64,000 bases of DNA, taken from the IMG/VR virus record IMGVR_UViG_3300035698_008372, positions 1 through 64,000 of that record. The stretch is one strand, 5' to 3'. Made by a program: the position numbers and the translations under genes. The notes under the pieces are model-generated. The model was not told the origin of the DNA and did not search any database. It saw only the letters and a list, made by a program, of their open reading frames with translations. The stretch is from a virus. Shown here piece by piece: positions 24,522 through 48,230 of the stretch (the first letter of the stretch is position 1; each line of letters starts with the position of its first letter).

Positions 24522-24821
24522 ATGGCTGGATTGGATTGGATTTCGAAAAAGGATTTTAAACTAACAACAATACAGAGAAAATTTATTGATAAATTGTTGG
24601 AAAATGATATATCAGCGATCAGTACAAAATATAAGGGTGAACTATTTATTGTACTTGAAAGTGAAAAAGATGGAACACAAAAAGTTAAACATGATCATGT
24701 GGCTCTTGAATTTTCGGATGCGAGTCGTGTATTTAAACTAACCACTAAAGATTTTGATACCATTCAGACTAGATATGGTAAATATTATATAAGATTTAAT
24801 AATGAAAATAAATTAAAATAA
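24522..24821 (+). CDS. Small hypothetical protein
   Basis: A 99-residue protein starting MAGLDWISKKDFKL, one base after the HNH gene stop region and with GAGGAG upstream. It is probably co-transcribed with the HNH gene. It has a basic N-terminal part and a beta-rich C-terminus. Its last codons overlap the conserved AT-rich sequence preceding the next early promoter. No family recognised. Confidence 0.6.
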   Translation: MAGLDWISKKDFKLTTIQRKFIDKLLENDISAISTKYKGELFIVLESEKDGTQKVKHDHVALEFSDASRVFKLTTKDFDTIQTRYGKYYIRFNNENKLK

Positions 24822-24824
24822 CGG

Positions 24825-24853
24825 TTGACTTTGTCAGTATAATCTTGCATCTT
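24825..24853 (+). promoter_or_regulatory. Early promoter TTGACT-17-CATCTT
   Basis: TTGACT, a 17-base spacer and CATCTT are followed by the conserved leader CAGGTATGATAAGAG. It is the weakest -10 of the twelve early promoters found. It serves the genes from 24883 to about 26068. Confidence 0.85.
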
Positions 24854-24882
24854 CAGGTATGATAAGAGAGGACAACCAAACC

Positions 24883-25062
24883 GTGAAAACCCACAAAAAA
24901 ATTAAAATTGAAACTGGCGTCTATAAATATAGGGGCTTTTGGTGTTGTGTCAATGAGGAAACTCCCACTGGTTATTGGGGCAGATGGTCAGCTTCCACTG
25001 GAATCATCACTGATTCATTGAAAAATTGTATGAGACAAATAGACGGGAAATTGGACAAATAA
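24883..25062 (+). CDS. Small hypothetical protein
   Basis: A 59-residue basic protein starting at GTG 24883 with AGAGAGGA about 10 bases upstream. An in-frame ATG at 24859 lies in the conserved leader and is not favoured. Features are GVYKYRGFWCCVNE and a Trp/Gly-rich middle, which look like a small beta barrel. Function unknown. Confidence 0.55.
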   Translation: MKTHKKIKIETGVYKYRGFWCCVNEETPTGYWGRWSASTGIITDSLKNCMRQIDGKLDK

Positions 25063-25221
25063 ATGAAAGAATACCAAATTCCCAAAGAATTACAATCGGA
25101 AACGGATACATTCGAATTTTTTAGAAAAGTACGATTGTTGTATCCAGCGTTGAAAAATAAAAATTTAAGATATGATAAATATAAAAAAACCGTAACTGTT
25201 TTGAGAAGAAAAAGAAAGTAG
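25063..25221 (+). CDS. Small basic hypothetical protein
   Basis: A 52-residue protein (MKEYQIPKELQSETDTFEFF, ending VTVLRRKRK) whose ATG directly follows the preceding TAA. Translation is probably coupled. It is too short for family recognition; the basic tail suggests nucleic-acid contact, which is speculative. Confidence 0.55.
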   Translation: MKEYQIPKELQSETDTFEFFRKVRLLYPALKNKNLRYDKYKKTVTVLRRKRK

Positions 25222-25225
25222 AATT

Positions 25226-25360
25226 ATGTTTAAAGTTGGATTGTATATGACAATATATGGGACGGGTATGGTATTGTTAGGCGTATCGTTGCCATTGGGT
25301 ATTGCTATGGGTTTGGTTGGGGTATTTGGCGTTTATTATGAATATGACAATAAGGGTTAA
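25226..25360 (+). CDS. Small membrane protein
   Basis: A 44-residue protein, nearly all one or two membrane segments (YMTIYGTGMVLLGVSLPLGI, GLVGVFGVYY) and a charged end. It lies between co-directional early genes with four-base gaps. Function unknown. Confidence 0.5.
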   Translation: MFKVGLYMTIYGTGMVLLGVSLPLGIAMGLVGVFGVYYEYDNKG

Positions 25361-25364
25361 TTAA

Positions 25365-25571
25365 ATGAAAGCTGAATTTTTAAAGGAATTGAAAGCATTA
25401 TTGGAAAAATATGATGCTTCCCTAGATGTCGAAGAACGTAACGATGGTAGTTGGTATCCCATTACAGAATTGGAAATATATTTCGATAAAACTGGTGACA
25501 GGATTGAATTGGCTAAATATAATGACGCCAATTCTCTTGAAATAGAAATAAAAAACGAATTGGACAAATAA
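25365..25571 (+). CDS. Small acidic hypothetical protein
   Basis: A 68-residue protein (MKAEFLKELKALLEKYDASL, then YPITELEIYFDKTGD) predicted helical then beta. It resembles small phage alpha/beta proteins of unknown role. The stop overlaps the next ATG by one base. Confidence 0.6.
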   Translation: MKAEFLKELKALLEKYDASLDVEERNDGSWYPITELEIYFDKTGDRIELAKYNDANSLEIEIKNELDK

Positions 25572-25771
25572 TGAAAGTTAGACAACAAATAGTACCGATG
25601 CATAGGGGAGTTCAATATTCAGATAAGGTGCATGACGTTGATGCGTTTAGTGAATTGACTCAAACATTTATACGGAGTGCTTTTGATAGTGATGAGGGCG
25701 ATGTGATTCCAAAGCGTGTTATTACTGAGTATGAAGATCGTATGGTTATTTTTGAAAGGCTGGACGATTAA
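25571..25771 (+). CDS. Small hypothetical protein
   Basis: A 66-residue protein (MKVRQQIVPMHRGVQYSD, ending MVIFERLDD). Start and stop are tightly coupled to neighbours. No family recognised. Confidence 0.55.
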   Translation: MKVRQQIVPMHRGVQYSDKVHDVDAFSELTQTFIRSAFDSDEGDVIPKRVITEYEDRMVIFERLDD

Positions 25772-26068
25772 ATGAAAATTAAAAAAGACGAAAAGTTATG
25801 GATGGTTCCAACTCGGTATTGGGAAACAACTGAGCCGGAATCATGTATTGGGCTCACCGATGACGTTTATAGTGGTAAACATGCCTATGTGTTTTTAGAG
25901 CATTATGGTTATAATGCGTATGTTAAAATTGAAGACTTATTTCATATTAAAGAAAATGCCATTAAAGTAGCTGAAGCGCGGGCCATTATAAAAGATGCAA
26001 ATTTTAATGATGAAGGAAGTGAAATTGATATTGATGATTTCATTGAACAAGTCAGAGCGAGTGGATAA
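25772..26068 (+). CDS. Small hypothetical protein
   Basis: A 98-residue acidic protein; a Trp/Tyr-rich N-terminal half (KLWMVPTRYWETTEPES) and an acidic C-terminal half (DEGSEIDIDDFIEQV). It is the last gene before a terminator at 26118. Function unknown. Confidence 0.55.
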   Translation: MKIKKDEKLWMVPTRYWETTEPESCIGLTDDVYSGKHAYVFLEHYGYNAYVKIEDLFHIKENAIKVAEARAIIKDANFNDEGSEIDIDDFIEQVRASG

Positions 26069-26117
26069 TTAAATGGATGCTGCTACAGAAAAATAATGAT
26101 TTATAAACGAAATTAAT

Positions 26118-26142
26118 AGCCCCAGCAATGGGGCTTTTTTTT
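26118..26142 (+). terminator. Rho-independent terminator
   Basis: GCCCC / GGGGC hairpin with loop AGCAAT, followed by eight T residues, ends the early transcript from 24825. Confidence 0.9.
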
Positions 26143-26180
26143 GTGCTAAAATAAATCGGGGTTTTGAGAGTGCCCATTAC

Positions 26181-26188
26181 TATTTATA
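26181..26188 (+). promoter_or_regulatory. T4-type late promoter TATTTATA
   Basis: TATTTATA followed by an A-rich AAAAAAGG ribosome binding region lies 18 bases before ATG 26206. It follows a terminator, so the downstream accessory genes may be expressed late. Confidence 0.65.
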
Positions 26189-26205
26189 AAAAAAGGAATA
26201 GAATA

Positions 26206-26502
26206 ATGGACTATAATAAAAAATACATATTCATATCAGATGGAACTTGGTTTGATAAGGGTACTGAATGTACCGTTGAAGATGGAGATTCCATGTGGTC
26301 GTATGGGATATGGAACTATGGTACTGCTAAAAAGGAATTTACCCTTGAAGAAATGAATGAGCACAGAGGTGATATTGGCGGCATATTCAGAGGGATTAGA
26401 ACATGTGAAAATTCTGCAGCTGAAGGTGGCAGGCCGGTTGGTGAAAAATATGATGATGGTGAAGTATGTGGTATGGATGAATTTGAGATAAGGAGAATAT
26501 AG
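26206..26502 (+). CDS. Hypothetical protein
   Basis: A 98-residue protein starting MDYNKKYIFISDGTWFDKG. ATG 26206 is chosen for its AAAGGA spacing over an upstream in-frame start. The sequence is Gly/Glu-rich with a likely small beta domain. It starts a long run of tightly coupled small genes. Function unknown. Confidence 0.6.
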   Translation: MDYNKKYIFISDGTWFDKGTECTVEDGDSMWSYGIWNYGTAKKEFTLEEMNEHRGDIGGIFRGIRTCENSAAEGGRPVGEKYDDGEVCGMDEFEIRRI

Positions 26503-26685
26503 ATGAAGTTTAATAGAAATGACATGGTAAAATGGAACGGCGAGCTATATGAGTTTGGGTATTATAATGCTAATAGGGCTATTATATACAGACCCGGTGA
26601 GACTGATAAGGACAATAGGTATATTACAGTATTGGTAGAGGAGTTACAGGCTTCAGGCAAGCAATTGTTGAAGGGCAACGAATAG
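26503..26685 (+). CDS. Small hypothetical protein
   Basis: A 60-residue protein (MKFNRNDMVKWNGELYEFGY) with AGGAG 10 bases upstream. The N-terminal pattern looks like a small SH3-like beta barrel of the kind seen in many phage accessory proteins, which is inference. Function unknown. Confidence 0.6.
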   Translation: MKFNRNDMVKWNGELYEFGYYNANRAIIYRPGETDKDNRYITVLVEELQASGKQLLKGNE

Positions 26686-26883
26686 GTGAGCAACAATAAA
26701 TACAGAAAATTGGTTGCCAAAGGCCGCGGCGAATGGATAAAAAAGTGGTTCGGCGGCTCGACTGAAACCGATCCAGTAATAGATGGTAATACAGTGCCAT
26801 ACGAAGAATTAATAGTCGGATTCAGAAGATTTTCGACTGATCAGGAAATATTTTTTAATAAACCATTTGGAGAAGATAGATAA
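26686..26883 (+). CDS. Small hypothetical protein
   Basis: A 65-residue protein starting at GTG directly after the preceding TAG (MSNNKYRKLVAKGRGEWIKK). It is basic at the N-terminus. Its stop overlaps the next ATG by one base. No family recognised. Confidence 0.55.
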   Translation: MSNNKYRKLVAKGRGEWIKKWFGGSTETDPVIDGNTVPYEELIVGFRRFSTDQEIFFNKPFGEDR

Positions 26884-27278
26884 TGAGTAAAAAGGTTACA
26901 TTAATTAGTAAGAACTATTATGCCGAAGAATTGGGTGACATTGAACAAGATGTCAGTGATGCGATTCAAGATTCAAAGGTTATGGCAGATGATACGGATG
27001 AACACGGATTTACCAAAGGTCACTTGACTGTTATAATAGAATATATTCCAGAGAGTGAGGACAAACCATGCAAGTCATATATGGGGGTTGGCCCAGGACA
27101 TCAGAGCAGGTTGCAATGTGAGGAACAGGGCACGCATGTAATCCATAGGGCATATTATGATTATGGTGGATATACCGCATATTGGAAAGGCAACGAAGCC
27201 TTTTCGGGATTTTTTGATGATGTCCCCGGTAATGGTGATTTGGAAGTTGAATATTACGAGGAACATAATGAAGATTAA
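26883..27278 (+). CDS. Acidic hypothetical protein
   Basis: A 131-residue acidic protein (MSKKVTLISKNYYAEELGDI, later CKSYMGVGPGHQSRLQCEE). Two Cys could form a pair. The C-terminus is very acidic. It overlaps the YopX-like gene by 11 bases. Function unknown. Confidence 0.6.
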   Translation: MSKKVTLISKNYYAEELGDIEQDVSDAIQDSKVMADDTDEHGFTKGHLTVIIEYIPESEDKPCKSYMGVGPGHQSRLQCEEQGTHVIHRAYYDYGGYTAYWKGNEAFSGFFDDVPGNGDLEVEYYEEHNED

Positions 27279-27627
27279 ATTTAGAATATGGGATGGTGAA
27301 AAAATGACATACCTGAATAATTGTGGCTATGCTATGGCTACATTATTCTTCACCAATTCAGGCCATAATGATACTGGCAGTTGTAATGAGGGTTATAATT
27401 TGGATCATGTCAAAGTGATGCAATTTATTGGTATGATGGATACCAACGGTAAGGAAATATTTGAAGGTGATATTGTGGAGTACGAGAATGGCAATGCTGG
27501 CTACGGCAGGCCGAGATCAGAAGAATTGAGCAGATATACGATTCCACCGATAATGGAAATTGAAGATGACATGCTGCCGTTTATTAGGTATAGTGAGGTC
27601 GTCGGGAATACAGTGGAGACTGAATAA
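27268..27627 (+). CDS. YopX-like protein
   Basis: A 119-residue protein starting MKIKFRIWDGEKMTYL with the signature MQFIGMMDTNGKEIFEGDIV, which matches the YopX family of phage accessory proteins. The ATG at 27268 has GAGGA upstream and overlaps the preceding gene. The molecular function of the family is unknown. Confidence 0.85.
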   Translation: MKIKFRIWDGEKMTYLNNCGYAMATLFFTNSGHNDTGSCNEGYNLDHVKVMQFIGMMDTNGKEIFEGDIVEYENGNAGYGRPRSEELSRYTIPPIMEIEDDMLPFIRYSEVVGNTVETE

Positions 27628-27827
27628 TGGAAGAAACGATTAAAAAATTGGCGGACAACATGATATTTGTCAAGATACAGCCCAAGAGAATAGATGGGGA
27701 TTGGGCATTTAGGTATGTGTGGGAACGGTTTAATGCAAATGGTGATAGCATGTATATGTCAGAATGGGGAGGTTTTGAAGAAGTGATGGATTGTGTGAAT
27801 GGCGCGTTGGGGCATGTTAATGATTAA
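27627..27827 (+). CDS. Small hypothetical protein
   Basis: A 66-residue protein (MEETIKKLADNMIFVKIQP) with Trp-rich middle (GDWAFRYVWERF). Start and stop overlap neighbouring genes. No family recognised. Confidence 0.55.
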   Translation: MEETIKKLADNMIFVKIQPKRIDGDWAFRYVWERFNANGDSMYMSEWGGFEEVMDCVNGALGHVND

Positions 27828-27984
27828 ATTGATGAGTTTGATGGAAGAAAGACGCCAGCTGGAATATGACATTGTTGCATTCGAAAAGGGTGGATTCTCA
27901 ACAACGTGGGAGAGCATACAGCTTTGGTGGTTGGATTACCGAATTGGAAAATTGGCAATGAAAAGGAATATGGATGATGAATAA
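27820..27984 (+). CDS. Small hypothetical protein
   Basis: About 54 residues from ATG 27820 (MIKLMSLMEERRQLEYDIVA). An upstream in-frame ATG at 27799 would overlap the preceding gene more, so the shorter start is preferred. Likely helical. Function unknown. Confidence 0.5.
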   Translation: MIKLMSLMEERRQLEYDIVAFEKGGFSTTWESIQLWWLDYRIGKLAMKRNMDDE

Positions 27985-28174
27985 AGCCGAATATAACATA
28001 GTGGTACGCAACCAACAATGGAATAGCCATACCAAAAAATATTCGTATGATAACTTTAGTTATGAAGCCGGATGGGAATGCTTTCAGATTAAGGATAAAC
28101 GTATGGATGGATCGGGTCATGTCATTGCTGTGTATCCATTTCACAATTGGCATTTGACATTGGAGAAGAAATAA
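27974..28174 (+). CDS. Small hypothetical protein
   Basis: A 66-residue protein (MMNKAEYNIVVRNQQWNSHT), overlapping the preceding gene by 11 bases. Aromatic-rich and probably beta-structured. No family recognised. Confidence 0.5.
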   Translation: MMNKAEYNIVVRNQQWNSHTKKYSYDNFSYEAGWECFQIKDKRMDGSGHVIAVYPFHNWHLTLEKK

Positions 28175-28359
28175 TGATAGAACGGTTATTAAACACATAT
28201 ACGATATTGAGGACAAATGCTGATGGATCGGCCGCCTATATATCCGAATTTGTGGAAAAAGAAGAGGCCCAACGCAGGTTGGGTGTATTTCTCAGTGAAC
28301 AAATTGATCCACTTGTTACATTCACTTTGATTAAATATAGGGGTGATAGCAATGATTAA
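28174..28359 (+). CDS. Small hypothetical protein
   Basis: A 61-residue protein (MIERLLNTYTILRTNADGSA) whose ATG overlaps the preceding stop. It overlaps the next start at 28352. Function unknown. Confidence 0.5.
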   Translation: MIERLLNTYTILRTNADGSAAYISEFVEKEEAQRRLGVFLSEQIDPLVTFTLIKYRGDSND

Positions 28360-28658
28360 ATTGGAAAAAACTGGTGACTTGGGCGAGATGTTTGACATGA
28401 TTGCAGAATTTGTGTATGAGTATTGGGATGGTGAATCCGATCCTTTTGTACATGGTCAGGGTAAGACAATTGCAATAGAATTGGGCGGACCCGAAAAACC
28501 GATGGGGGTGCGAATTCCATGACTATTATCATGTTAAGGGATCGGATAATTCAGAGACTTCTACTGACAGGATTGAGGGCCCTCCCGTTTTCACCCAAGA
28601 AAGTGATAACGATGTGACTGATTCTCATTCTCAATTAGATAAAAATAAATTAAAATAA
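28352..28658 (+). CDS. Hypothetical protein with apparent frameshift at a G5 run
   Basis: ATG 28352 opens a frame with coding-like content (MIKLEKTGDLGEMFDMIAEF) that meets TGA at 28520 and TAA at 28535. The +1 frame from about 28512 continues in convincing coding style (EFHDYYHVKGSDNSETSTD) to TAA 28656. The switch lies at GGGGG, 28504-28508; one G fewer would make a single ~101-residue protein. Sequencing error, a real disruption and programmed shifting cannot be separated here. The last codons overlap conserved promoter-upstream sequence. Confidence 0.4.
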
Positions 28659-28661
28659 CGG

Positions 28662-28690
28662 TTGACTTTGTCGTTTTTATCTTGTATCTT
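28662..28690 (+). promoter_or_regulatory. Early promoter TTGACT-17-TATCTT
   Basis: TTGACT, 17 bases, TATCTT, then CAGGTATGAG. It faces a ~150-base stretch with no convincing gene beyond a 14-codon frame, ending in an inverted repeat at 28809. Confidence 0.9.
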
Positions 28691-28695
28691 CAGGT

Positions 28696-28834
28696 ATGAG
28701 AGAAACAGAACTAAAGAAATTAACATTGCCGAAAGTCTAATAATGCCCCGGTCGCCTCCCACATAAAATAATAAGAATTATAAAATATATTACAATAATA
28801 GATATACCAAGGGCCCATCATCGTATGGGCCCTT
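28696..28834 (+). ncRNA. Candidate small RNA or leader peptide transcript
   Basis: Between the promoter at 28662 and a perfect 10-bp inverted repeat (AAGGGCCCAT / ATGGGCCCTT, 28809-28834) the only frame is 14 codons (28696-28740, MRETELKKLTLPKV). The rest is AT-rich and non-coding. A promoter and hairpin flanking ~140 bases suggest a small RNA. The hairpin lacks a T run, so termination is uncertain. Confidence 0.3.
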
Positions 28835-28864
28835 AATAGTTTGCAAAATAAATTAAAATAACGG

Positions 28865-28893
28865 TTGACTTTGTCGTTTTTATCTTGTATCTT
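28865..28893 (+). promoter_or_regulatory. Early promoter TTGACT-17-TATCTT
   Basis: Identical core and spacer to the promoter at 28662, followed by CAGGTATGATAAGAAAAGGA, which supplies the ribosome binding site of the gene at 28920. Confidence 0.92.
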
Positions 28894-28919
28894 CAGGTAT
28901 GATAAGAAAAGGAAACAAA

Positions 28920-29291
28920 ATGAAAATCGAACCAAGAAATTTTAATGATACACAAGTAACTTTTAACCGAATCGGCTGGAAGGGCAAAACCTATCAGTAC
29001 CGAGGATATGATTACGCCCACAACCCCAAAGCTTTGTATGAGGCCAACGCTGATGAAACGGCATTGGATAGTAGGGTAATGGATTTGTTTAAATCCCCAG
29101 TGGGTGAAACTTCAATTTATAAGAACATCCCAATGGAATACCGTTGGAACCCGCTCATCAGAGGCATGATGATGTCGGGAACATATCGTATTAAGTATCG
29201 CGGCCCTTCAAAGCCCGAATTTCTATTCACACGACCACAAGCGCATACGTTAGCAGAATACGCCGACACATTCACAATCTATCCGAGATAA
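28920..29291 (+). CDS. Hypothetical protein
   Basis: A 123-residue basic protein starting MKIEPRNFNDTQVTFNRIG; AAAAGGA lies 8 bases upstream. An in-frame ATG at 28899 in the shared leader is not preferred. Contains IPMEYRWNPLIRGMMMSG and a beta-rich C-terminus. Function unknown. Confidence 0.6.
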   Translation: MKIEPRNFNDTQVTFNRIGWKGKTYQYRGYDYAHNPKALYEANADETALDSRVMDLFKSPVGETSIYKNIPMEYRWNPLIRGMMMSGTYRIKYRGPSKPEFLFTRPQAHTLAEYADTFTIYPR

Positions 29292-29293
29292 GC

Positions 29294-29503
29294 ATGGGAT
29301 TTTTTACAAGATTATTTGGACAAGAATGTAAGGTCAGATTTGAGGGGACTCTCTATGATGGCAGAGTTTTTACTGGCAAGTGTAGAATTGAAACATTCAA
29401 TATAAATAATGATGAATTGGAACAAAATCTGAAAAATCATATTTTTGTGGAAACTGGTGATAAGGTGGGATCGGTAAAAGTATTGGGATTTGCAGAACAT
29501 TAG
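29294..29503 (+). CDS. Small hypothetical protein
   Basis: A 69-residue protein (MGFFTRLFGQECKVRFEGTL, then YDGRVFTGKCRIETF), probably a small beta-rich domain. It starts three bases after the preceding gene. A terminator follows. No family recognised. Confidence 0.55.
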   Translation: MGFFTRLFGQECKVRFEGTLYDGRVFTGKCRIETFNINNDELEQNLKNHIFVETGDKVGSVKVLGFAEH

Positions 29504-29522
29504 GAAAAGTCTTATCATAGAA

Positions 29523-29546
29523 AGCCTCAGCAATGGGGCTTTTTTT
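29523..29546 (+). terminator. Rho-independent terminator
   Basis: AAGCCTCAGCAATGGGGCTT with one stem mismatch, followed by a T run. It closely resembles the terminator at 26118. Confidence 0.8.
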
Positions 29547-29552
29547 AGCTGC

Positions 29553-29579
29553 AGTATGTCCACGAATACTGGACATACT
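29553..29579 (+). repeat. Perfect 9-bp inverted repeat
   Basis: AGTATGTCC and GGACATACT flank a 9-base loop, about 75 bases before the start at 29655. It has no T run, so it looks more like an operator or an RNA element than a terminator. Confidence 0.45.
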
Positions 29580-29654
29580 AGCCGCATATCATGCAATTAA
29601 AATAAGTGTGACGTTTGGTGGGTCTTGTGTATATGTATATATAAAGGAGATCGT

Positions 29655-29963
29655 ATGCGGGATAATATATATTTTAGAATGCACCTTACTGAAAATGAAC
29701 ACTATTTTATGGAATCTGAATTCAAAAAGGCCTGTGCCGAATATGGGTGTGAATTGGCATATTACAGAAAAATGAAGAATGGTCACATTCCAATGATTAG
29801 GGAATGTAAAATTACTGGCGGCAAATTGGGCAAATTCAAAGGATTTCTGAAGCAGGAAAAATATGATAAACATGTCGTGGATAGGAAGTGCTTTTCAGAG
29901 CACCCCGATATGATGTGTGAAGATTGCAATTGCTGGAAACAAGTAAGGGCGTATTGTTCATAA
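29655..29963 (+). CDS. Cys-rich small hypothetical protein
   Basis: A 102-residue protein starting MRDNIYFRMHLTENEHYF with AAGGAG 6 bases upstream. Seven Cys residues include CEDCNCW near the C-terminus, suggesting metal binding. No early promoter core precedes it; TATATATAA lies just upstream. The stop overlaps the next start. Function unknown. Confidence 0.6.
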   Translation: MRDNIYFRMHLTENEHYFMESEFKKACAEYGCELAYYRKMKNGHIPMIRECKITGGKLGKFKGFLKQEKYDKHVVDRKCFSEHPDMMCEDCNCWKQVRAYCS

Positions 29964-30190
29964 TGAGGGATAAAAGATATATAATAGAGGGCGTTAAAGG
30001 TCTGAAGGATTGGTTTGCAAAGGAAATAGAGGAACAGGGTTCCGAGAAAACGGAAGTGCTCGATTTACTACAGGATGTATTGGATGAACTCAATAAGCCC
30101 GATCCACAACCAGAAATTAGGGAAGTATTGCCACCAGGTATGTGTCCAATGTGTCATAGCTTCTTTTGTAGTGGAAATTGTTTCAAATAG
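29963..30190 (+). CDS. Small zinc-finger-like protein
   Basis: A 75-residue protein (MRDKRYIIEGVKGLKDWF) with a C-terminal CPMCHSFFCSGNC, a likely zinc knuckle. ATG 29963 overlaps the preceding stop, implying coupled translation. Function unknown. Confidence 0.6.
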   Translation: MRDKRYIIEGVKGLKDWFAKEIEEQGSEKTEVLDLLQDVLDELNKPDPQPEIREVLPPGMCPMCHSFFCSGNCFK

Positions 30191-30206
30191 ATAAGGAGAT
30201 AAAAAG

Positions 30207-30641
30207 ATGGTATTGGAAATATTATTTGTATTGTGTATTGTGTTATATTGGGTTGCCGAGGGGGTAACCGAAGGATTTACTTGGGCATCACATGACCAAC
30301 GGACCGTAAATAAATTGATTCATCTAAACAATGGAACAAACGGATTAATGGATTATCACGGATGGCGCCTCTTTGAAAATATTGGGATTTGGGGAGCGGT
30401 GATTATTGCATTTTTTATTGATTTGCCGATTTTAAGCTTTTTCTTACTGGGAGTGGGGGCGTGGTTGATAGGAACGGCATTGTATGAAATGGCACTTAAT
30501 CATGTGAATACTGGGAGTATTTACAAGACTAACGATTTCAGGTGGCACATATTTGGAAAAGATATTAGAACGGTGACGGGGAAACTGATATGGGTATTAT
30601 TTTTCCTCGGGGTATTATTATTGATATTATTTATTTTGTAA
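30207..30641 (+). CDS. Membrane protein
   Basis: A 144-residue protein with about four hydrophobic segments: residues 1-20 (LEILFVLCIVLYWVAE), 63-80 (IGIWGAVIIAFFIDLP), 82-105 and the C-terminal 25 (LIWVLFFLGVLLLILFIL). AAGGAG lies 8 bases upstream. A role in membrane remodelling or exclusion is possible but unsupported. Confidence 0.65.
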   Translation: MVLEILFVLCIVLYWVAEGVTEGFTWASHDQRTVNKLIHLNNGTNGLMDYHGWRLFENIGIWGAVIIAFFIDLPILSFFLLGVGAWLIGTALYEMALNHVNTGSIYKTNDFRWHIFGKDIRTVTGKLIWVLFFLGVLLLILFIL

Positions 30642-30655
30642 ATGGCAGAAAACGC

Positions 30656-30684
30656 TTGACTTTGTCAATATAATCTTGTATATT
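30656..30684 (+). promoter_or_regulatory. Early promoter TTGACT-17-TATATT
   Basis: TTGACT, 17 bases, TATATT (closer to the sigma70 -10 consensus than most copies), then CAGGTATGATAAGAAAAGG. It begins the run of genes to about 32487. Confidence 0.92.
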
Positions 30685-30710
30685 CAGGTATGATAAGAAA
30701 AGGAAAACAA

Positions 30711-31127
30711 ATGAATTTAAGAGAAATGACACCACAAGAACGAGAAGTAACAATGGCTGAATGGCGGGAAAAAGACAGTCTCAAACAAGAAGCTGAAATG
30801 GCCGAACGCCACAAAATTAAGGAGTTCGCTAATTTATGTGGATATTCAGACGTTGAACCTTATGAAGTTGTTGAAACTCGTACTCCTAATAAGGTTATGA
30901 TTCGATTTATGGATTCTGAAATGCTTACACCGGCTAAGTGTGTAGCAATTGGTGGATTCGTTGGTCACTTTGATAACTATACTCAGACTTGGGAAAACTC
31001 TTCAAATGAAGAATATCCTTTGGTGGCAATCCGTTGGTCAAAGGCTAAGGGATACTGGTTTGATAAGTACGGAAGACGCTTTAGTATGTCTGATAAAGCT
31101 GTCAAATTTTACGATAACAACTTCTAA
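30711..31127 (+). CDS. Hypothetical protein
   Basis: A 138-residue protein starting MNLREMTPQEREVTMAEWRE with AAAAGG upstream. A helical charged N-terminal third is followed by a beta-rich domain (NKVMIRFMDSEMLTP, VAIRWSKAKGYWFDKYG). No family recognised. Confidence 0.6.
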   Translation: MNLREMTPQEREVTMAEWREKDSLKQEAEMAERHKIKEFANLCGYSDVEPYEVVETRTPNKVMIRFMDSEMLTPAKCVAIGGFVGHFDNYTQTWENSSNEEYPLVAIRWSKAKGYWFDKYGRRFSMSDKAVKFYDNNF

Positions 31128-31141
31128 GAAAGGCCCATATA

Positions 31142-31570
31142 ATGGCTTACATGTCTCAAGAAAATAAGAAATCAAAGGCTCCAAAAATCAAAGCTTTGTT
31201 GAAGGAATATGGAATCAAAGGATCGTTGGCCGTACGGAATTACAGCACATTGGTTCTAAATTTAAAGGGCGGCACGATTGATTTCATCGGCGAATATAAC
31301 AAACAGGTGGATGCTCAGAATTCCAGGGTTGGTCAGTATAGAGCTGAAGGTTATATGGATGTTAATACTTATTGGTATATGGAACATTTCACTGGAGAGG
31401 CCAAGGAATTTTTTGGTAAGGTTCTTGAAATTATGAATGATGGGAACCACGATAATTCGGATGCTCAGGTTGATTATTTCGACGTGGGTTGGTATTCCAA
31501 TATTAATGTTGGTAAGTGGAATAAACCATACGAATATGTTGCACCGATATTGGAGCATGATAATGAGTAA
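31142..31570 (+). CDS. Conserved phage protein of unknown function
   Basis: A 142-residue protein (MSQENKKSKAPKIKALLKEY, SLAVRNYSTLVLNLKGGTID). I recognise this motif from a hypothetical family found in KVP40-like and other large phages. It overlaps the next gene by eight bases. Function unknown. Confidence 0.7.
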   Translation: MAYMSQENKKSKAPKIKALLKEYGIKGSLAVRNYSTLVLNLKGGTIDFIGEYNKQVDAQNSRVGQYRAEGYMDVNTYWYMEHFTGEAKEFFGKVLEIMNDGNHDNSDAQVDYFDVGWYSNINVGKWNKPYEYVAPILEHDNE

Positions 31571-31811
31571 ATTAAGTAAAGCACACAAAGCATTTATTGT
31601 AGAATCCGCTATGGATTATCTTGGGGTCAGTGATAGAAATCCCGAAGTGGGTATGGGCATGTTTGCCTTTACCGCTGTGGACCTTGCGGTGGCAGAATTT
31701 AAAGAAACGGCCGAACTTTTCGGGCCGGTAATTGATGTTTCTCAAGCTGAAAAGGATGAAATTGAAGAAGAGGTCGTTCGATTACGAACATGGCCAAATG
31801 GAGCACACTAA
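31563..31811 (+). CDS. Small acidic hypothetical protein
   Basis: An 82-residue acidic protein (MSKLSKAHKAFIVESAMDYL, C-terminal EKDEIEEEVVRLRTW). Start lies in the end of the preceding gene and the stop overlaps the next ATG. Function unknown. Confidence 0.6.
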   Translation: MSKLSKAHKAFIVESAMDYLGVSDRNPEVGMGMFAFTAVDLAVAEFKETAELFGPVIDVSQAEKDEIEEEVVRLRTWPNGAH

Positions 31812-32044
31812 TGGCAGATAAAATTAAGTGGTTGACAAAAGTGGAAGATATCGAGGGTTCTGGGATAGAAGTGCTCGAGAATTCACTATTAACTACAGAT
31901 GGTAAGGGTAAAGAATTTAAACAGTTGGTACTCGATGAATTGAAGTACCAATTGACTAACCAACTCATAGAACGGAATGCCCATCTTGAGAGATTGGTGA
32001 GCTCGTATGAAGTGGGTATTGATCCCTACGCACGGAACTTGTAA
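31811..32044 (+). CDS. Small hypothetical protein
   Basis: A 77-residue helical protein (MADKIKWLTKVEDIEGSGIE, LKYQLTNQLIERNAHLERL). Overlaps the preceding stop. No family recognised. Confidence 0.55.
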   Translation: MADKIKWLTKVEDIEGSGIEVLENSLLTTDGKGKEFKQLVLDELKYQLTNQLIERNAHLERLVSSYEVGIDPYARNL

Positions 32045-32046
32045 TC

Positions 32047-32487
32047 ATGACAAATAATTATATGGTATCGGGTAGTGTGGGGGGTTTCTACGGCGGGTCT
32101 GTTCCATCTGGGTGGGTGCAAATGCAATACGATGTGCCGAAACCATTCACAGAATGGGAATCTAAAATTGGAAAATCTAACAATTGGTGAAATGGTGTAA
32201 ATGCAATCCCAGAATTTAAATCCAAGATACCAAGAAAAAACCCGTGGCTGGATATGTGGTATCCAAAGGTAACCATCGCGATGGTTGGTTTGCCGGCTGT
32301 AAGGAATGCATTTCCTCAACAAATAGCTCAACAAATAGTCAGTGTTCAACCTATGGGAACCCCAAAAGGGGTGACATACTATATGGATGAAATTTATGAA
32401 AAAAATAAATATAAACGGGCGTGGAATAAATTCAAACGATTATGCCAATTTGGGACAACCAAACTATTTATTGGAAAGCAAAAATAA
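32047..32487 (+). CDS. Early-region protein carrying a capsid (gp23)-like segment
   Basis: A 146-residue protein starting MTNNYMVSGSVGGFYGG. TGA 32188 is read as Trp (SNNWWNGVNAIPEF), the only clear internal TGA in the early-promoter block. Residues about 80-117 (GLPAVRNAFPQQIAQQIVSV, QPMGTPKGVTYYMDEIY) align without gaps to residues about 86-122 of the capsid protein here, with roughly half the positions identical. The rest does not look like capsid. The segment corresponds to the conserved gp23 region that in T4 includes the Gol peptide. A decoy or interfering role is speculative. Confidence 0.65.
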
Positions 32488-32490
32488 CGG

Positions 32491-43387: not shown

Positions 43388-43416
43388 TTGACTTTGTCAT
43401 TATTATCTTGTATCTT
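43388..43416 (+). promoter_or_regulatory. Early promoter TTGACT-17-TATCTT
   Basis: It has the standard core and spacer. The leader has ACG where other copies have ATG (CAAGTACGAAAAGAAAAGG), again arguing against a leader start. It drives DNA ligase. Confidence 0.92.
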
Positions 43417-43442
43417 CAAGTACGAAAAGAAAAGGAATATAC

Positions 43443-45365
43443 ATGAATCAAAGTGAACGCAGAACACAATTAGTTATATGGAGCGATAGTTATTATAATC
43501 AAAATATCTCAATCGTTCCCGACCATATATTTGACGAAGCACAGGCTTCGTATTTTAAAGATTTTAACGACCCCGAATTACTTTCTACAATTGGTTCTCC
43601 AGTTGTAAAATCGTCCGCTTGGGAAAAAGCAACTCACAAAATTCCAATGGGTTCACTCAGTAAAGTATCAACCGAATCGGAATTTTTAAAATGGTATTCT
43701 ACAGTAACTGGACAAGTTGTTCTGTCCGAAAAGCTCGATGGAATTTCAATTGATTTGGAATATCAAGAAGGTATTTTTATCCGTGGCATCACCAGAGGTG
43801 ATGGTATTGTGGGTGAAGATATCACAGTCAATGTTAAACAGATGAAGGGATTTATTCCCCAATTGATTAACAATGATACGGTATCAGTTCGTGGTGAGAT
43901 TGTTATACTTGAAAACGATTTTGATAAAATTGTTGAACTTCAAAAATTACGTGGTGACGATCCAATCAAAAATCCTCGAAATGGGGCAGGCGGAAAAGCC
44001 CGTGACCGTGAAGGAATTTACGCTGGATATCTGACAATCAAATGTTATGATACGTCAAATACCGGACCCAAAGATGTGGAATTTAATTGGTTGGAAAGCC
44101 AAGGATTTAAGACTCCAAACTGGGGAGTATATTTTAATAGTGGCACTATTCTAGCCGTATATAATGTGTATGAAGAGGACACTCGTGCAAGTCTAGATTA
44201 TGAAATTGATGGACTTGTATTGGAAATTAACGACCCCAAAATTCGTGAAGAATTGGGATACAAAGACGGGCGTCCAAAGTTTGCAAAGGCATTCAAGTTC
44301 GCGAGTCTAAAAGCCAAAACTCAGATTGAAGGTATTGAATGGTCACTCGGCAAGAGTGGAACCATTACCCCAGTTGCATTGTTGAAGCCCGTTCACATGG
44401 GCGGTGTGACTGTACAACGTGCAAGTCTGGCTAATCTAGCTCGTTTCGAAGAAATGGGATTGCACATTCATGATGAGGTTGTTGTGTCTAGGCGGGGTGA
44501 TGTGATTCCATATATTGAATCCATTTCTAGACCTATGAGGGGTGACAAATTCAAAGCACCCGAGCGCTGTCCAACCTGTGACAAACTCGTTATCAAAGAT
44601 GACAAGTTCCTTAGATGTATCAACCCAACATGTTCGGGAGCAATCATCGGTGGAATTATCAAATGGATTAACAAATCCGATATGTCTGGTGATGGACTTG
44701 GGGGATCAACCATTGAAAAATTAGTTGATTTGGGATTTGTGAACACTCCGGCAGACTTATACAAATTGTCGGTAAATGACTTTCTAACATTACCAGGATT
44801 CGCTACACGATCGGCAAACAAAATGCACGACATTATTCAGAGCCACAAAACGATTTCATTAGCTGATTTCGTGGGTGGGTTGAACTTGGGACACTTTGGT
44901 TCATCATTGACTAAATTATTGATAGATGCGGGATATGATTCACTTGAAAAGCTACAAAATTTAGCAGTATGGGATATCATGGGAGTCCCAGGATTCGGCA
45001 AATCACGGGCACAAGATTTTGTTTCAAGCCTATCGAATAAAAAGAGTGTGGTCGATGATTTACTATTATATGTGTCTATAGAGAAGGATGCACCAAAAAT
45101 GGTTGCAGATTCAAATGGATTAAACGGAATGAGCTTTTGTTTCACAGGTGCTATCCACAAAATCGGTGAAGATGGAAAACGCCTGACTCGTAAAGATATG
45201 GAAAAATTGGTATTGATGAACGGAGGAGATACTTCCAATGTCAAGAAAGGACTTACATATCTTGTACAGGCCGACCCCGATAGTGTGAGTTCCAAAACAA
45301 TCAAAGCTTCAAAATTCGGAGTTGAAATTCTGAGTGAATCTAAATTTTTCGAAATGATTGATTAA
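43443..45365 (+). CDS. ligA: NAD-dependent DNA ligase
   Basis: A 640-residue ligase that seals nicks using NAD+. The adenylated Lys is K97 in SEKLDGIS. An OB-fold region (VVVSRRGDVIPYIESISRP), a four-Cys zinc finger (CPTCDKLVI, CINPTC), a helix-hairpin-helix region (LTLPGFATRSANKMHDII) and a C-terminal BRCT domain (FCFTGAIHKIGEDGKR) follow. All Trp codons are TGG. T4 itself uses an ATP ligase, so this NAD-type gene is a notable difference. It has its own early promoter and terminator and sits in the tail gene block. Confidence 0.95.
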   Translation: MNQSERRTQLVIWSDSYYNQNISIVPDHIFDEAQASYFKDFNDPELLSTIGSPVVKSSAWEKATHKIPMGSLSKVSTESEFLKWYSTVTGQVVLSEKLDGISIDLEYQEGIFIRGITRGDGIVGEDITVNVKQMKGFIPQLINNDTVSVRGEIVILENDFDKIVELQKLRGDDPIKNPRNGAGGKARDREGIYAGYLTIKCYDTSNTGPKDVEFNWLESQGFKTPNWGVYFNSGTILAVYNVYEEDTRASLDYEIDGLVLEINDPKIREELGYKDGRPKFAKAFKFASLKAKTQIEGIEWSLGKSGTITPVALLKPVHMGGVTVQRASLANLARFEEMGLHIHDEVVVSRRGDVIPYIESISRPMRGDKFKAPERCPTCDKLVIKDDKFLRCINPTCSGAIIGGIIKWINKSDMSGDGLGGSTIEKLVDLGFVNTPADLYKLSVNDFLTLPGFATRSANKMHDIIQSHKTISLADFVGGLNLGHFGSSLTKLLIDAGYDSLEKLQNLAVWDIMGVPGFGKSRAQDFVSSLSNKKSVVDDLLLYVSIEKDAPKMVADSNGLNGMSFCFTGAIHKIGEDGKRLTRKDMEKLVLMNGGDTSNVKKGLTYLVQADPDSVSSKTIKASKFGVEILSESKFFEMID

Positions 45366-45387
45366 GATTTTCAAACAACACCCTACA

Positions 45388-45414
45388 GAGCCCCATTTAT
45401 TGGGGCTTTTTTTG
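45388..45414 (+). terminator. Rho-independent terminator after ligA
   Basis: AGCCCC / GGGGCT with loop ATTTATT, followed by seven T residues. Confidence 0.9.
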
Positions 45415-45433
45415 CGAAAAGCGAAAATAACGG

Positions 45434-45462
45434 TTGACTTTGTCGTTTTTATCTTGTATCTT
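45434..45462 (+). promoter_or_regulatory. Early promoter TTGACT-17-TATCTT
   Basis: It has the standard core, followed by the full leader CAGGTATGATAAGAAAAGGA; nearly identical to 28865. Confidence 0.93.
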
Positions 45463-45488
45463 CAGGTATGATAAGAAAAGGAAACAAA

Positions 45489-45956
45489 ATGTATTCAGTT
45501 AAAAATGTAAAAACATTTCCAGGTCATGATGACGGATTGGGAATGAATTGTAATTTGTATAAGAACAACAAAAAGGTGGCCACAGTTCACGATGACGCGT
45601 GGGGAGGGGCATTTCATTTCAATTGGGTCAATAACACCGAATCGGATATTTTGGATAACTATTTAGAAACATTTCCAAAATATTTCTTTATTGATGAAAT
45701 GCATACTCATACCCAAGATACATTTGTAGACAAATTGGTCATGAATGTATTGATCGGGAAAGAGGCCAAAGTGGCATTGAGAAAACGATTTATCCTTATT
45801 ACGGATGAGGGAAACTTCTTACAATTTAAGAAAAATGGTTGTACCCTTGAATCGTTTGGAACGTATATCGACGAATCAAAGCAGTATAATGGTGAAGTTG
45901 CAAACCTAATGGATTTCGATAAGTTTTTAGAATTATATAAGGAATATATCAAATGA
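45489..45956 (+). CDS. Hypothetical protein
   Basis: A 155-residue protein (MYSVKNVKTFPGHDDGLGMN). AAAAGGA lies 8 bases upstream. The sequence has an N-terminal beta-rich part and a helical C-terminus (LMDFDKFLELYKEYIK). It overlaps the next gene by four bases (ATGA, where the gene itself ends in TGA). If TGA were read as Trp it would extend; see 45953. No family recognised. Confidence 0.55.
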   Translation: MYSVKNVKTFPGHDDGLGMNCNLYKNNKKVATVHDDAWGGAFHFNWVNNTESDILDNYLETFPKYFFIDEMHTHTQDTFVDKLVMNVLIGKEAKVALRKRFILITDEGNFLQFKKNGCTLESFGTYIDESKQYNGEVANLMDFDKFLELYKEYIK

Positions 45957-46219
45957 GAAATGTAAAATTTACTCAAAAAGAATGGGTTGAATTGTACCCA
46001 TTATATACACATGGCATTAAGGCTACTGGAGATTGGGTAGAAGGTATTCAGTACATTGAAGAAATGTTGACTGATAGACAATACAATTTCCTAATGGGGT
46101 TCGCTATGTGGATTGTAGCTGGCGGGGTTGAAGATTTTTATGGTCAGGAAATGGAAGTACGTGCCTTTGGTAGTGGTAACTATATCCAACGATTTCAAGA
46201 ATACAAGAGTGGGGTATAA
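45953..46219 (+). CDS. Small hypothetical protein
   Basis: An 88-residue protein (MRNVKFTQKEWVELYPLYTH) whose ATG overlaps the end of the preceding frame in ATGA. It contains a helical middle (FLMGFAMWIVAGGVEDFYG). Function unknown. Confidence 0.55.
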   Translation: MRNVKFTQKEWVELYPLYTHGIKATGDWVEGIQYIEEMLTDRQYNFLMGFAMWIVAGGVEDFYGQEMEVRAFGSGNYIQRFQEYKSGV

Positions 46220-46220
46220 T

Positions 46221-46529
46221 ATGTCGGTACATAGTGATAGACTTGCACAATTTCTGGATGTATCATACAGTGGTCGTAAACTTTTGAAACACCATAATTT
46301 GGATGAATATGGTACGTGGCATGTTAGAGGTGAAGACCCCAATTGCGATATGGGTGGTCCTCATCACATGCCCGATCTTGGGTATTTTAAGGGGACACTT
46401 GAAGAAGTCATAAATCGTGCTGTCGACCTTCCGCGATTTTGGTCATGGGGAGGTGGTGGTGATATTTCAAAAGTGGTTGATAATGTAGTAACCACACTTT
46501 CGGAGCCGGCCGATGAAATGGAACAATAG
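46221..46529 (+). CDS. Hypothetical protein
   Basis: A 102-residue protein (MSVHSDRLAQFLDVSYSGRK) with a His/Pro-rich middle (PNCDMGGPHHMPDLG). A possible metal site is speculative. It is the last gene before the promoter at 46569. Confidence 0.55.
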   Translation: MSVHSDRLAQFLDVSYSGRKLLKHHNLDEYGTWHVRGEDPNCDMGGPHHMPDLGYFKGTLEEVINRAVDLPRFWSWGGGGDISKVVDNVVTTLSEPADEMEQ

Positions 46530-46568
46530 GATTAAGTTGAAAATAAACGTCAAAGTTGAAAATAACGC

Positions 46569-46597
46569 TTGACTTCGTCATTATTTCGTCGTATATT
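46569..46597 (+). promoter_or_regulatory. Early promoter TTGACT-17-TATATT
   Basis: TTGACT, 17 bases (with TTCGTC in place of TTTGTC overall) and TATATT, then CAGGTATGAAAGAAAAGG. Confidence 0.9.
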
Positions 46598-46623
46598 CAG
46601 GTATGAAAGAAAAGGATAACCAA

Positions 46624-46788
46624 ATGAGCAAGACTTTAAAAGATTTACAGGCAGAGAAAAGACAATTATTAGTAAAATTCGATAGAATCTGCAGTATGCA
46701 TTCGGGAGCGGATCATAGGGTTCAGAATATGTTGGTATTAATCAGAGAAAATAAAAGGGCAATCGCCAAAATGGGGGAAACCAAATAA
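46624..46788 (+). CDS. Small coiled-coil protein
   Basis: A 54-residue helical protein (MSKTLKDLQAEKRQLLVKFD). AAAAGGA precedes the start. Its TAA overlaps the following ATG by one base. Function unknown. Confidence 0.5.
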   Translation: MSKTLKDLQAEKRQLLVKFDRICSMHSGADHRVQNMLVLIRENKRAIAKMGETK

Positions 46789-46925
46789 TGACTATAGGCA
46801 AAGGAATCGCGTTTGGGTCACTATTTTTCTCGGTGGCACTGATTTGCATATTCGCACCGGCCGCGAGCTTCATCGCAATAGTTCTGGGGGTTATTGGGTC
46901 CATGTCAATCGCTGAGGCCGATTAA
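46788..46925 (+). CDS. Small membrane protein
   Basis: A 45-residue protein with two hydrophobic segments (FGSLFFSVALICIFA, FIAIVLGVIGSM). A 19-codon frame from 46925 (MPELLVIMGEAILLFLFLE) overlaps its stop and may be a second tiny membrane product. Function unknown. Confidence 0.45.
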   Translation: MTIGKGIAFGSLFFSVALICIFAPAASFIAIVLGVIGSMSIAEAD

Positions 46926-46984
46926 TGCCCGAGTTGCTTGTAATAATGGGTGAAGCGATTCTGCTATTCTTATTTTTGGAATAA

Positions 46985-47132
46985 TGATTTATAAACGAGT
47001 ACAAAGATAAAATTTTAGGGGGGCGTTGGTTACTCACCTACCACAGCCGGCGTCACCCCGCACCATTACAAAAACCCCCTCCTTTCTTATCACCTCTGGG
47101 GGTTTTTTCTTTGCCGCATTGCAAAATAACGG
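46985..47132 (+). other. Non-coding stretch with GC-rich segment and terminator
   Basis: No convincing gene. A GC-rich patch at about 47020-47065 (GGGGGGCGTTGG, CAGCCGGCGTCACCCC) stands out from the AT-rich background and can form imperfect pairing. It is followed by a terminator: AACCCCC and GGGGGTT around 47073-47104 with an 18-base loop and a T run. It may hold a small structured RNA. It was inspected for tRNA features and none were found. Confidence 0.35.
47071..47108 (+). terminator. Rho-independent terminator
   Basis: AACCCCC / GGGGGTT stem around a T-rich 18-base loop, then TTTTTTC. Confidence 0.75.
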
Positions 47133-47161
47133 TTGACTTTGTCAGTATAATCTTGTATCTT
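47133..47161 (+). promoter_or_regulatory. Early promoter TTGACT-17-TATCTT
   Basis: It has the standard core, followed by the leader CAGGTATGATAAGAAAAGGA, which serves the gene at 47188. Confidence 0.93.
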
Positions 47162-47187
47162 CAGGTATGATAAGAAAAGGAAAACAA

Positions 47188-47379
47188 ATGACAAATTTAC
47201 CATACACTTTTGATTTATTTTGGGATATCAAAGATACCGAAACACTTACAAGAGAGCTCAATTGGGCTATTGAAAAAGTTGGTGATATGATTGAGGCAAT
47301 GGAAGGTCATAAAATTGAAATGGCCCCTGACACCATCGAAAAATTGGACAAATTAAAAAAAATATTGGAGATCAAATAA
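47188..47379 (+). CDS. Small helical protein
   Basis: A 63-residue protein (MTNLPYTFDLFWDIKDTETL, then a helical Lys-rich end). AAAAGGA precedes the start. It overlaps the next ATG by one base. Function unknown. Confidence 0.55.
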   Translation: MTNLPYTFDLFWDIKDTETLTRELNWAIEKVGDMIEAMEGHKIEMAPDTIEKLDKLKKILEIK

Positions 47380-47585
47380 TGAGTGAGCGAGAATTCGTTT
47401 TAAGAGACGAAACAGGTGATAGGGATACTATTCTATTGATAACCCCAGATACTTGGACATTGAAAGTCGTTCAAGATTACATCAGTGGGTCAGATTATAG
47501 TGTATATGAATTTTCATATTGGTCTACTAAAATGGTCAATGATAATACATTGATTATGACAATTGAAGATTGGGAAAATAGGTAA
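47379..47585 (+). CDS. Small hypothetical protein
   Basis: A 68-residue acidic protein (MSEREFVLRDETGDRDTILL, SVYEFSYWSTKMVNDN). Coupled to the preceding gene. No family recognised. Confidence 0.55.
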   Translation: MSEREFVLRDETGDRDTILLITPDTWTLKVVQDYISGSDYSVYEFSYWSTKMVNDNTLIMTIEDWENR

Positions 47586-47586
47586 A

Positions 47587-47895
47587 ATGAAATATCTAGT
47601 ACGACCCCGTGATTTCCACATATACGAATTGGATGAATCCAATGGATGTTATAGATCGTATTCATGTAGAAGTGTAACATATTCAGATGGTACACGACCA
47701 AATGCCCAATCACATTTTACATTTGAAAATTTAACGGAAAATTATGATTTTATCAGTATTGATAATTCGGAACTTCCGGCCTATGAAGAAAAGCATCAAT
47801 TGTATTTGGACTATACATCATGGGCAACAAGATCAGATGGTCATGGTGGTTCAAAGGGTGGCACAATGGGAGAATATTTAAGGCGGAGAAAATGA
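47587..47895 (+). CDS. Hypothetical protein ending at TGA
   Basis: A 102-residue protein (MKYLVRPRDFHIYELDESNG, ending GTMGEYLRRRK). Its first stop is TGA 47893, overlapped by a following ATG in ATGA. With TGA as Trp it would continue about 21 codons to TAG near 47960 in a less coding-like sequence. This makes it a candidate for a true TGA stop in an early gene. Function unknown. Confidence 0.55.
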   Translation: MKYLVRPRDFHIYELDESNGCYRSYSCRSVTYSDGTRPNAQSHFTFENLTENYDFISIDNSELPAYEEKHQLYLDYTSWATRSDGHGGSKGGTMGEYLRRRK

Positions 47896-48031
47896 GAAAA
47901 AAATAAAAGCGTCAATCCTATTTTCGTTTATAATGGTGTTACTGCTCCAATATGTCACTAGTGGATTGTTATGGCTATGTTGGGGAGCGGCCCTATTTTT
48001 GGGCCAATTGATGATTTGGGAAGAATTATAA
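47892..48031 (+). CDS. Small membrane protein with -1 shift at A_AAA_AAA
   Basis: ATG 47892 (MRKK) meets TAA at 47904 in its own frame. The -1 frame from the A7 run (47897-47903) encodes a clear membrane protein (IKASILFSFIMVLLLQYVTS, LLWLCWGAALFLGQLMIW) to TAA 48029, directly before the next gene. A AAA AAA is a canonical -1 slippery heptamer in the right phase; a missing A in the sequence would explain it as well. Function unknown. Confidence 0.45.
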
Positions 48032-48032
48032 A

Positions 48033-48230
48033 ATGAATACTGTAAAGACTGCAAACGGCATTAGGGAAATCGTACCGGTATATTGTGAATGGACTGGAAA
48101 ACAATTGTGTTGGGCAACCGTACCCGAATGTCCAATAATGGAAGGTGCAACACCGGCGTATCTTAGTTTTAAAGTTGTTGATACCGACGGTAAGGTATTA
48201 ATGGATTTATCGGATTGTCATACATTCTAA
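48033..48230 (+). CDS. Small hypothetical protein
   Basis: A 65-residue protein (MNTVKTANGIREIVPVYCEW, ending VLMDLSDCHTF) of likely beta structure with three Cys. A terminator follows at 48251. No family recognised. Confidence 0.55.
   Translation: MNTVKTANGIREIVPVYCEWTGKQLCWATVPECPIMEGATPAYLSFKVVDTDGKVLMDLSDCHTF

Follow-up and report, generated by a model that had tools for sequence, protein, structure and literature searches.

A T4-like phage in which UGA probably encodes tryptophan in late structural genes and remains a stop in early genes

Borges and colleagues, in 2022, are said by papers citing them to have described gut phages whose early genes follow the standard code and whose structural and lysis genes are recoded, and to have proposed a translation switch. 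CrAss-like phages use TGA as tryptophan (Trp) mostly in late genes, at times without a suppressor tRNA (Yutin 2021, PMC7886860), and a review presents the idea that recoding times lysis and gives a matching suppressor for 35% of TGA-recoded and 40% of TAG-recoded genomes (PMC10136315). There is also proteomic support for late UAG=Gln, with no recoding in early-fraction peptides (Peters 2022, PMC9523058), and a route to UGA=Trp that needs no UCA anticodon, in which a tRNA-Trp(CCA) with a 4-bp anticodon stem reads UGA (PMC13092985). In this study, we analyzed the use of UGA in a 64,000-base window, bases 1-64000 of the linear, 140,003-base virus record IMGVR_UViG_3300035698_008372. We consider it likely that the record comes from a T4-like phage, probably of Bacteroidota, whose lineage recently made UGA a Trp codon for late structural genes only, with UGA still a stop in early genes.

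Window positions equal record positions, and counts are given for the window alone or for the whole 140-kb record. Nearly all genes lie on the plus strand. Gene calling accepted only TAA and TAG as stops, which made early genes with TGA no harder to detect than late ones; this gave 265 calls with 69 TGAs, from which the minus-strand calls (11 of 265) were left out of the counts. Core Trp counts exclude the first 10 and last 12 codons of each gene, and counts also exclude portions of open reading frames (ORFs) upstream of early promoters that lie inside those ORFs.

Alignments with relatives indicate that UGA is Trp in late genes. The terminase TGA sites at 6727, 6838 and 7339 correspond to TGG in 43, 42 and 46 relatives, respectively, and TGA itself occurs in these columns in 8, 8 and 4 sequences (window included), all from the closest clade. 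With TGA masked as X, portal site 9786 has W in 38 of 45 relatives and TGA in 7 of 45, and sites 2323, 8601, 8982 and 9150 are mostly W in relatives. Other residues prevail at some sites (mostly Y at 2746, mostly I at 6444, L and G at 39648), as expected for variable positions. The alignment test covers the TGA sites that have relatives, many sites having none, and 29 TGA sites are unchanged in other assemblies. The portal insert is an intein with an HNH endonuclease (window 8382-9650, about residues 99-521, PF14890 at residues 105-513), which is absent from relatives and holds four of the window's TGAs (8601, 8982, 9039 and 9150). A glycine meaning for UGA (code 25), prompted by three Gly-like tRNAs described below, was ruled out, as relatives carry Trp at the sites. 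Since sister phages with 62% terminase identity have only TGG at the terminase sites, the recoding is recent.

Two promoter classes could be told apart with weight matrices made from two motifs of an earlier, sequence-only reading of the window, and TGAs played no part in finding them. The early promoter, AACGSTTGACTTTGTCn5TATCTTGTATCTTC, occurs 21 times on the plus strand and once on the minus strand (35003); the late promoter, TTTGATATTTATATACGAATAAA, occurs 10 times on the plus strand and once on the minus strand of the record. The matrices had no matches in mono-shuffled sequence. In addition, one contig from a relative carries the early box at its end, and the relative G023 has four copies. 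As a correction, the TGAs at 46570 and 47134 belong to the TTGACT core of early promoters and are not codons.

The sequence-only reading had held that TGA-Trp codons are scarce in the early-promoter blocks, and within the window this is borne out, with 71 TGG and 2 TGA (32188 and 47893) in the early blocks versus 186 and 27 in the rest (Fisher p=0.013). Its remarks that the 640-residue ligase has no TGA (8 TGG, 0 TGA) and that the capsid, tape measure and 706-residue protein also lack it were likewise correct. Equal use of TGA was not seen when the promoter classes were compared across the whole record: core Trp codons comprise 294 TGG and 4 TGA in early-promoter genes (4/298), 328 and 37 in late genes (37/365), and 33 and 4 in genes before any promoter. 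The early versus late difference has a Fisher p of 9e-7, and p=0.013 when labels were shuffled over promoter units, a procedure chosen because Trp codons are not independent. Among genes with core Trp, TGA is carried by 4 of 113 early and 22 of 82 late genes, and the bias is also present outside the window (early 220 TGG/2 TGA, late 175/14; p=6e-4). Divided by block, the record has TGG/TGA counts of 186/27 for structural, 266/3 for early, 93/6 for replication and 109/7 for sugar/glycan genes, and 1/2 for one small unit; the structural versus early contrast (27/213 and 3/269 TGA) has p=1e-7. Five of the six replication-block TGAs lie in homing-endonuclease-like ORFs, and without these ORFs and the intein the counts become 182/23 for structural and 88/1 for replication genes. 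Replication genes therefore resemble early genes in TGA poverty, which would fit a decoding change after their expression. Composition does not explain the bias, because the third-base A/G preference of other codons is alike in early and late genes.

The few TGAs of early genes are placed as stops would be. In ORFs bounded by TAA or TAG, with terminal defined as the last 12 codons, early TGAs are terminal in 15 of 19 cases versus 32 of 349 for TGG (p=1e-11), and late TGAs are spread like TGG (1 of 40 versus 12 of 353; p=1). The sequence-only reading had noted TGAs near the natural ends of two early genes; the pattern is wider, with 15 TGAs in 14 genes, and the one at 33955 acts as a stop. In four cases an early TGA shares an ATGA with the start of the next gene. 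When a gene caller could choose between stop and Trp for each TGA, it ended early genes at TGA in 18 of 150 cases and other genes in 0 of 109, and over 18 settings of this caller TGA-ended genes numbered 7-25 for early and 0-7 for other genes. The same codon, UGA, is thus a stop in the early class and Trp in the late class. Selection for backup stops behind early TGAs was considered and rejected, as the distance to the next TAA or TAG is not clearly smaller than that behind other stops (p=0.097).

These patterns recur in G023, an independent relative of 71,794 bases that is about 77% identical and spans the counterpart of about 48-105 kb and beyond (G024 repeats its sequence along its length in the match table and was not counted again). 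Core TGG/TGA counts in G023 are 59/24 for structural, 26/0 for early, 94/3 for replication and 134/13 for sugar genes; structural genes differ from early (p=8e-4) and replication genes (p=1e-6), and the difference in TGA use between sugar and early genes is not significant (p=0.22). TGA ends 2 of 16 early genes of G023 and none of 75 others. At Trp sites of structural orthologs, the record and G023 have TGG/TGG at 32, TGG/TGA at 12, TGA/TGA at 6 and TGA/TGG at 2, so that 20 of 52 involve TGA, and five more structural TGAs of G023 sit opposite non-Trp codons. The corresponding early sites are all TGG/TGG (19, none with TGA), replication sites comprise 66 TGG/TGG and one TGA/TGA (uvsX), and sugar sites comprise 68 TGG/TGG, two TGA/TGA, two TGA/TGG and one TGG/TGA. 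The early gene 63712-64071 ends in TAA here and its ortholog ends flush at TGA in G023. The TGA end of early gene 65814-66527 is conserved in G023, and proves little because it overlaps the start of the next gene. Late decoding of UGA must be efficient, because the G023 gene 10729-13176 contains 10 TGAs. In the sister phages, TGA terminates 14 of 92 genes in the structural region and 19 of 166 in the replication region (counted without the row holding L075); early genes have kept roughly this ancestral TGA-stop rate and late genes have lost TGA stops.

We propose that early genes would be made while UGA is still a stop and that later some agent would let ribosomes read UGA efficiently as Trp. 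Genes made under the first condition would retain TGA terminators at close to the ancestral frequency and could not tolerate TGA-Trp, and structural genes, made under the second, would lose TGA stops and drift freely between TGG and TGA. The sequences show the Trp meaning, the class bias, the stop-like early placement, the repetition in a relative and the recent origin; that the difference in decoding is a switch in time is what we infer from them.

UGA might instead be Trp throughout infection, through a host using code 4 or through constant readthrough, with early genes avoiding it because its decoding is slow or leaky. The failure to find a phage suppressor tRNA, the TAA or TAG soon after most early TGA stops and the use of TGA in uvsX would all agree with this, but we judge it unlikely, since early TGAs cluster at gene ends as neither TGG nor late TGAs do, the sister phages have no TGA-Trp, and the 10-TGA gene of G023 means efficient late decoding, so that a constant efficiency would leave the near-zero use in early and replication genes unexplained. 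Alternatively, the early genes could be young arrivals from standard-code phages, too recent to have gained TGA-Trp, with no effect of phase. Many early genes indeed have no relatives (the ligase and 65814 genes matched near-identical contigs only, and gene 118883 has none in the named-phage collection), and the early blocks are packed with small unknown genes. This is very unlikely, as the vertically conserved replication genes are just as TGA-poor (TGA makes up 1 of 89 core Trp codons once mobile ORFs are set aside and occurs at 1 of 67 ortholog sites) and early genes common with G023 have TGA at 0 of 19 sites. The number of TGAs in the calls (69 in 265) is about the yield of ordinary TGA stops, and code-11 ORFs lie between TGAs, as would be the case if TGA were a stop everywhere and adjacent genes had been wrongly merged. 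This has a vanishingly small probability and is refuted for the late genes, as the terminase, portal, sheath and hub profiles cross TGAs and, in terminase and portal, the relatives carry TGG at these very positions.

Several observations weigh against a stop meaning of UGA confined to early genes. TAA or TAG follows within about 11 codons at 13 of the 18 early TGA stops, so that reading them as Trp would be nearly harmless. In the late-type genes of a third recoded contig, G025, four TGAs directly before TAA or TAG were also called as stops; these look like C-terminal Trp codons, at least the terminase one, and because of them a terminal TGA alone is no proof and placement is judged for the class. 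The early gene 32047-32487 has an inner TGA (32188), and the TGAs at 47893 and 117047 are ambiguous and could be stops. The gene uvsX (72446-73564), whose nearest promoter by position is early, has a TGA conserved in G023; a strong hairpin separates it from the preceding gene, and so its class is less secure and it may have a later promoter of its own. The intermediate sugar/glycan block carries some TGAs, and it was counted as late via promoter 85189, which probably serves only a homing endonuclease gene, an issue that the counts by block avoid. Over the 18 caller settings, the early versus late p for inner TGAs spans 2e-8 to 0.40, the weakest settings being those with a heavy TGA-stop penalty and genes allowed through promoters. 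Finally, the searches of the recoded contigs yielded no decoding agent.

The record was searched for a suppressor tRNA with ARAGORN at several settings, with Rfam (gathering threshold and E<=10) and with a custom tRNA scan. A UCA-anticodon tRNA was found neither in the record, which is incomplete, nor in 33 related records (RF00005) or 255 loci (ARAGORN); the 255 loci include two Trp tRNAs with CCA, in the distant L110 and L112. Low-threshold ARAGORN predictions of 'Trp (tca)' at 43479, 44017 and 87957 were rejected, being low-scoring and inside the ligase and clamp-loader genes. Neither a release factor nor a Trp-tRNA synthetase was found in six recoded records, and a PCRF match at 61389-61748 in the 706-residue protein was discarded at 14.9 bits, below the cut-off of 24. 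A decoding difference between classes, as the sequence-only reading had proposed, is upheld as regards TGA as Trp in late genes, its avoidance and use as terminator in early genes and the same pattern in G023; the suppressor tRNA it had named as agent did not turn up in the recoded contigs searched, a result that is not final for an incomplete record. The suppressor may be missing by accident, because at least ~10 kb of late genes that the relative G001 has upstream are absent from the record, and no contig bridging the record ends was found.

The sole tRNAs of the record are three Gly-like ones at 81817-82058, and a TATTTATA box lies three bases ahead of them. The first (81817-81890; L001 18317-18390) has a 6-base anticodon loop, TTTCCA, U73 and two T-stem mismatches. 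Compared with L163, it shows paired changes that preserve the acceptor and anticodon stems, and among the loci searched it was found only in those of the recoded clade. We do not claim this odd tRNA-like RNA as the decoder, because it has no UCA anticodon and, we assume, no Trp identity. There is about an even chance that the agent is a UGA-reading tRNA-Trp encoded in the unsequenced part or supplied by the host; host tRNA-Trp(CCA) reading UGA once RF2 is depleted or inhibited is possible, and something else is unlikely. Since a suppressor tRNA is missing, the system is a candidate for a switch with another agent. One rather doubtful version involves no UCA suppressor at all: late in infection, host tRNA-Trp(CCA) would read UGA as UGA termination weakens, perhaps aided by the odd tRNA-like RNA directly behind the late-type box. 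If that RNA does help, decoding would be tied to the late promoter itself.

We classify the record as a T4-like myophage, with profile matches to terminase, a T4-type portal, a Gp23-type capsid, contractile sheath, tape measure, UvsX, a DnaB-like helicase, DNA polymerase, clamp loader and NAD-dependent ligase. By terminase and capsid, the nearest named phages are Microcystis phage Mel-JY01 and Flavobacterium phage immuto (50-55% identity). The host is probably a member of Bacteroidota, judging from these kin and from the shape of the early promoter, which we take to resemble Bacteroidota promoters. A scan of a genome collection found no terminase relative, and the metagenome-assembled genome TMED198 was rejected as a pointer to the host, as its one 54% match, of another gene, is too remote.

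Features of the window bearing on UGA use are collected in the table. The Gp23 piece encoded by the early-block exception is presumably like the capsid segment sensed by host exclusion systems. Other early genes include one with a ribosomal L7/L12 C-terminal-like domain (window 33329-33640; PF00542 matched one of 61 early proteins, and which one was inferred by phmmer), and an RNA ligase and a polynucleotide kinase/phosphatase (record 64623-65504 and 69099-70040), a pair that we assume to parallel T4 tRNA repair. Near the right end, record 138361-139559 (L004 16361-17559) holds tandem diverged copies about 720-750 bases apart, the longer ones 76-86% identical, as if early cassettes had been duplicated. 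The ribonucleotide reductase gene is in two parts (record 76548-80767; L001 13048-17267), and the ORF between them, with four TGAs and its own late promoter at 78487, is likely an intron-borne endonuclease. The DNA polymerase gene is split (83465-86993) around an ORF with the late promoter 85189; L049 has a homolog of this ORF within its split terminase gene and L050 has one near the terminase, and G023 has one unsplit 833-residue gene at the matching place. ARAGORN predicted tmRNA genes in the sister contigs L166, L167, L170 (6044-6377) and L173 (7931-8343).

Table. Promoters, genes and TGA codons of the window
Feature	Position	Strand	Remarks
Early promoter example, AACGGTTGACTTTGTC-n5-TATCTTG(T/C)ATCTTC	24820..24866	+	Matrix scan
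Late promoter example, TTTTGATATTTATATGTGAATAA	35028..35053	+	Others in window: 4858, 11288, 20589, 48353, 50190, 60669
Early block A, small genes behind TTGACTTTGTC...TATCTTGTATCTTC promoters	24522..34980	+	Promoters 24825, 28662, 28865, 30656, 32491; 32188 is the sole inner TGA
Early block B, including NAD-dependent DNA ligase 43443-45365	43388..48300	+	Promoters 43388, 45434, 46569, 47133; PHROG 3869
Early-block exception	32047..32487	+	TGA 32188; Gp23 capsid N-terminal piece, PF07068 3.7e-07
TGA as stop of early gene 28352-28522	28520..28522	+	
TGA as stop of early gene 33640-33957	33955..33957	+	Second TGA at 33970
TGA overlapping next start (ATGA), end of early gene 45489	45954..45956	+	Free-choice caller continued 2 codons to TAA
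Terminase large subunit	6484..8070	+	PHROG terminase match runs across TGAs 6727, 6838, 7339
T4-type portal (Gp20) with intein	8088..11264	+	PF07230, PF14890; TGA 9786 in portal proper
Head-tail adaptor-like gene, TGA 35679	35652..36818	+	PHROG 211; W or TGA in both relatives
Tail sheath, TGA 39648	39252..41630	+	PHROG 23 match crosses TGA; two relatives have L, G
Baseplate hub-like gene, TGA 49608	49200..49976	+	PHROG 150 crosses TGA; two relatives have F, V
Two large late genes, 957 and 848 residues	53018..58759	+	TGAs 54758, 55274, 56633, 57152, 57713, 58565

Late-gene recoding and the timing idea have already been published for crAss-like and gut phages; what is new here is a clean, promoter-resolved case in a T4-like lineage. 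At the level of titles and abstract openings, no T4-like or marine recoded phages came up in the literature, which is weak evidence of absence. Code-switching would extend to a T4-like lineage whose promoters are legible by eye and therefore allow a gene-by-gene test of the published timing idea, and the standard-code kin offer a before-and-after comparison in which late genes lost TGA stops and gained TGA-Trp and early genes did neither. As described in PMC7886860 and PMC10136315, crAss-like phages are similar in their late-gene bias, the reassignment of TGA to Trp, a code that differs among related branches, a suppressor that is often missing, recoded codons in inteins and introns, and Bacteroidetes hosts, which are suspected here. 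Some crAss-like phages use UAG=Gln. In contrast to them all, the phage studied here is a T4-like myophage (Gp23, Gp20, terminase, UvsX and clamp loader) and has two readable promoter classes with TGA kept as terminator in one. The proteomics of the recoded gut phages concerns UAG=Gln, whereas the present case is UGA=Trp with no suppressor detected and with standard-code sisters. The Zeta crAss phage Lera (PMC12386605) also uses UGA=Trp, mostly in structural and lysis genes, and its opal suppression is younger than the split from its near relative; unlike the phage studied here, which has Gly-type tRNAs only, Lera has a Sup-UCA tRNA among 26 tRNAs. The system of PMC13092985 relies on a tRNA-Trp, whereas here no tRNA-Trp of any kind was found and the odd phage tRNA is Gly-like.

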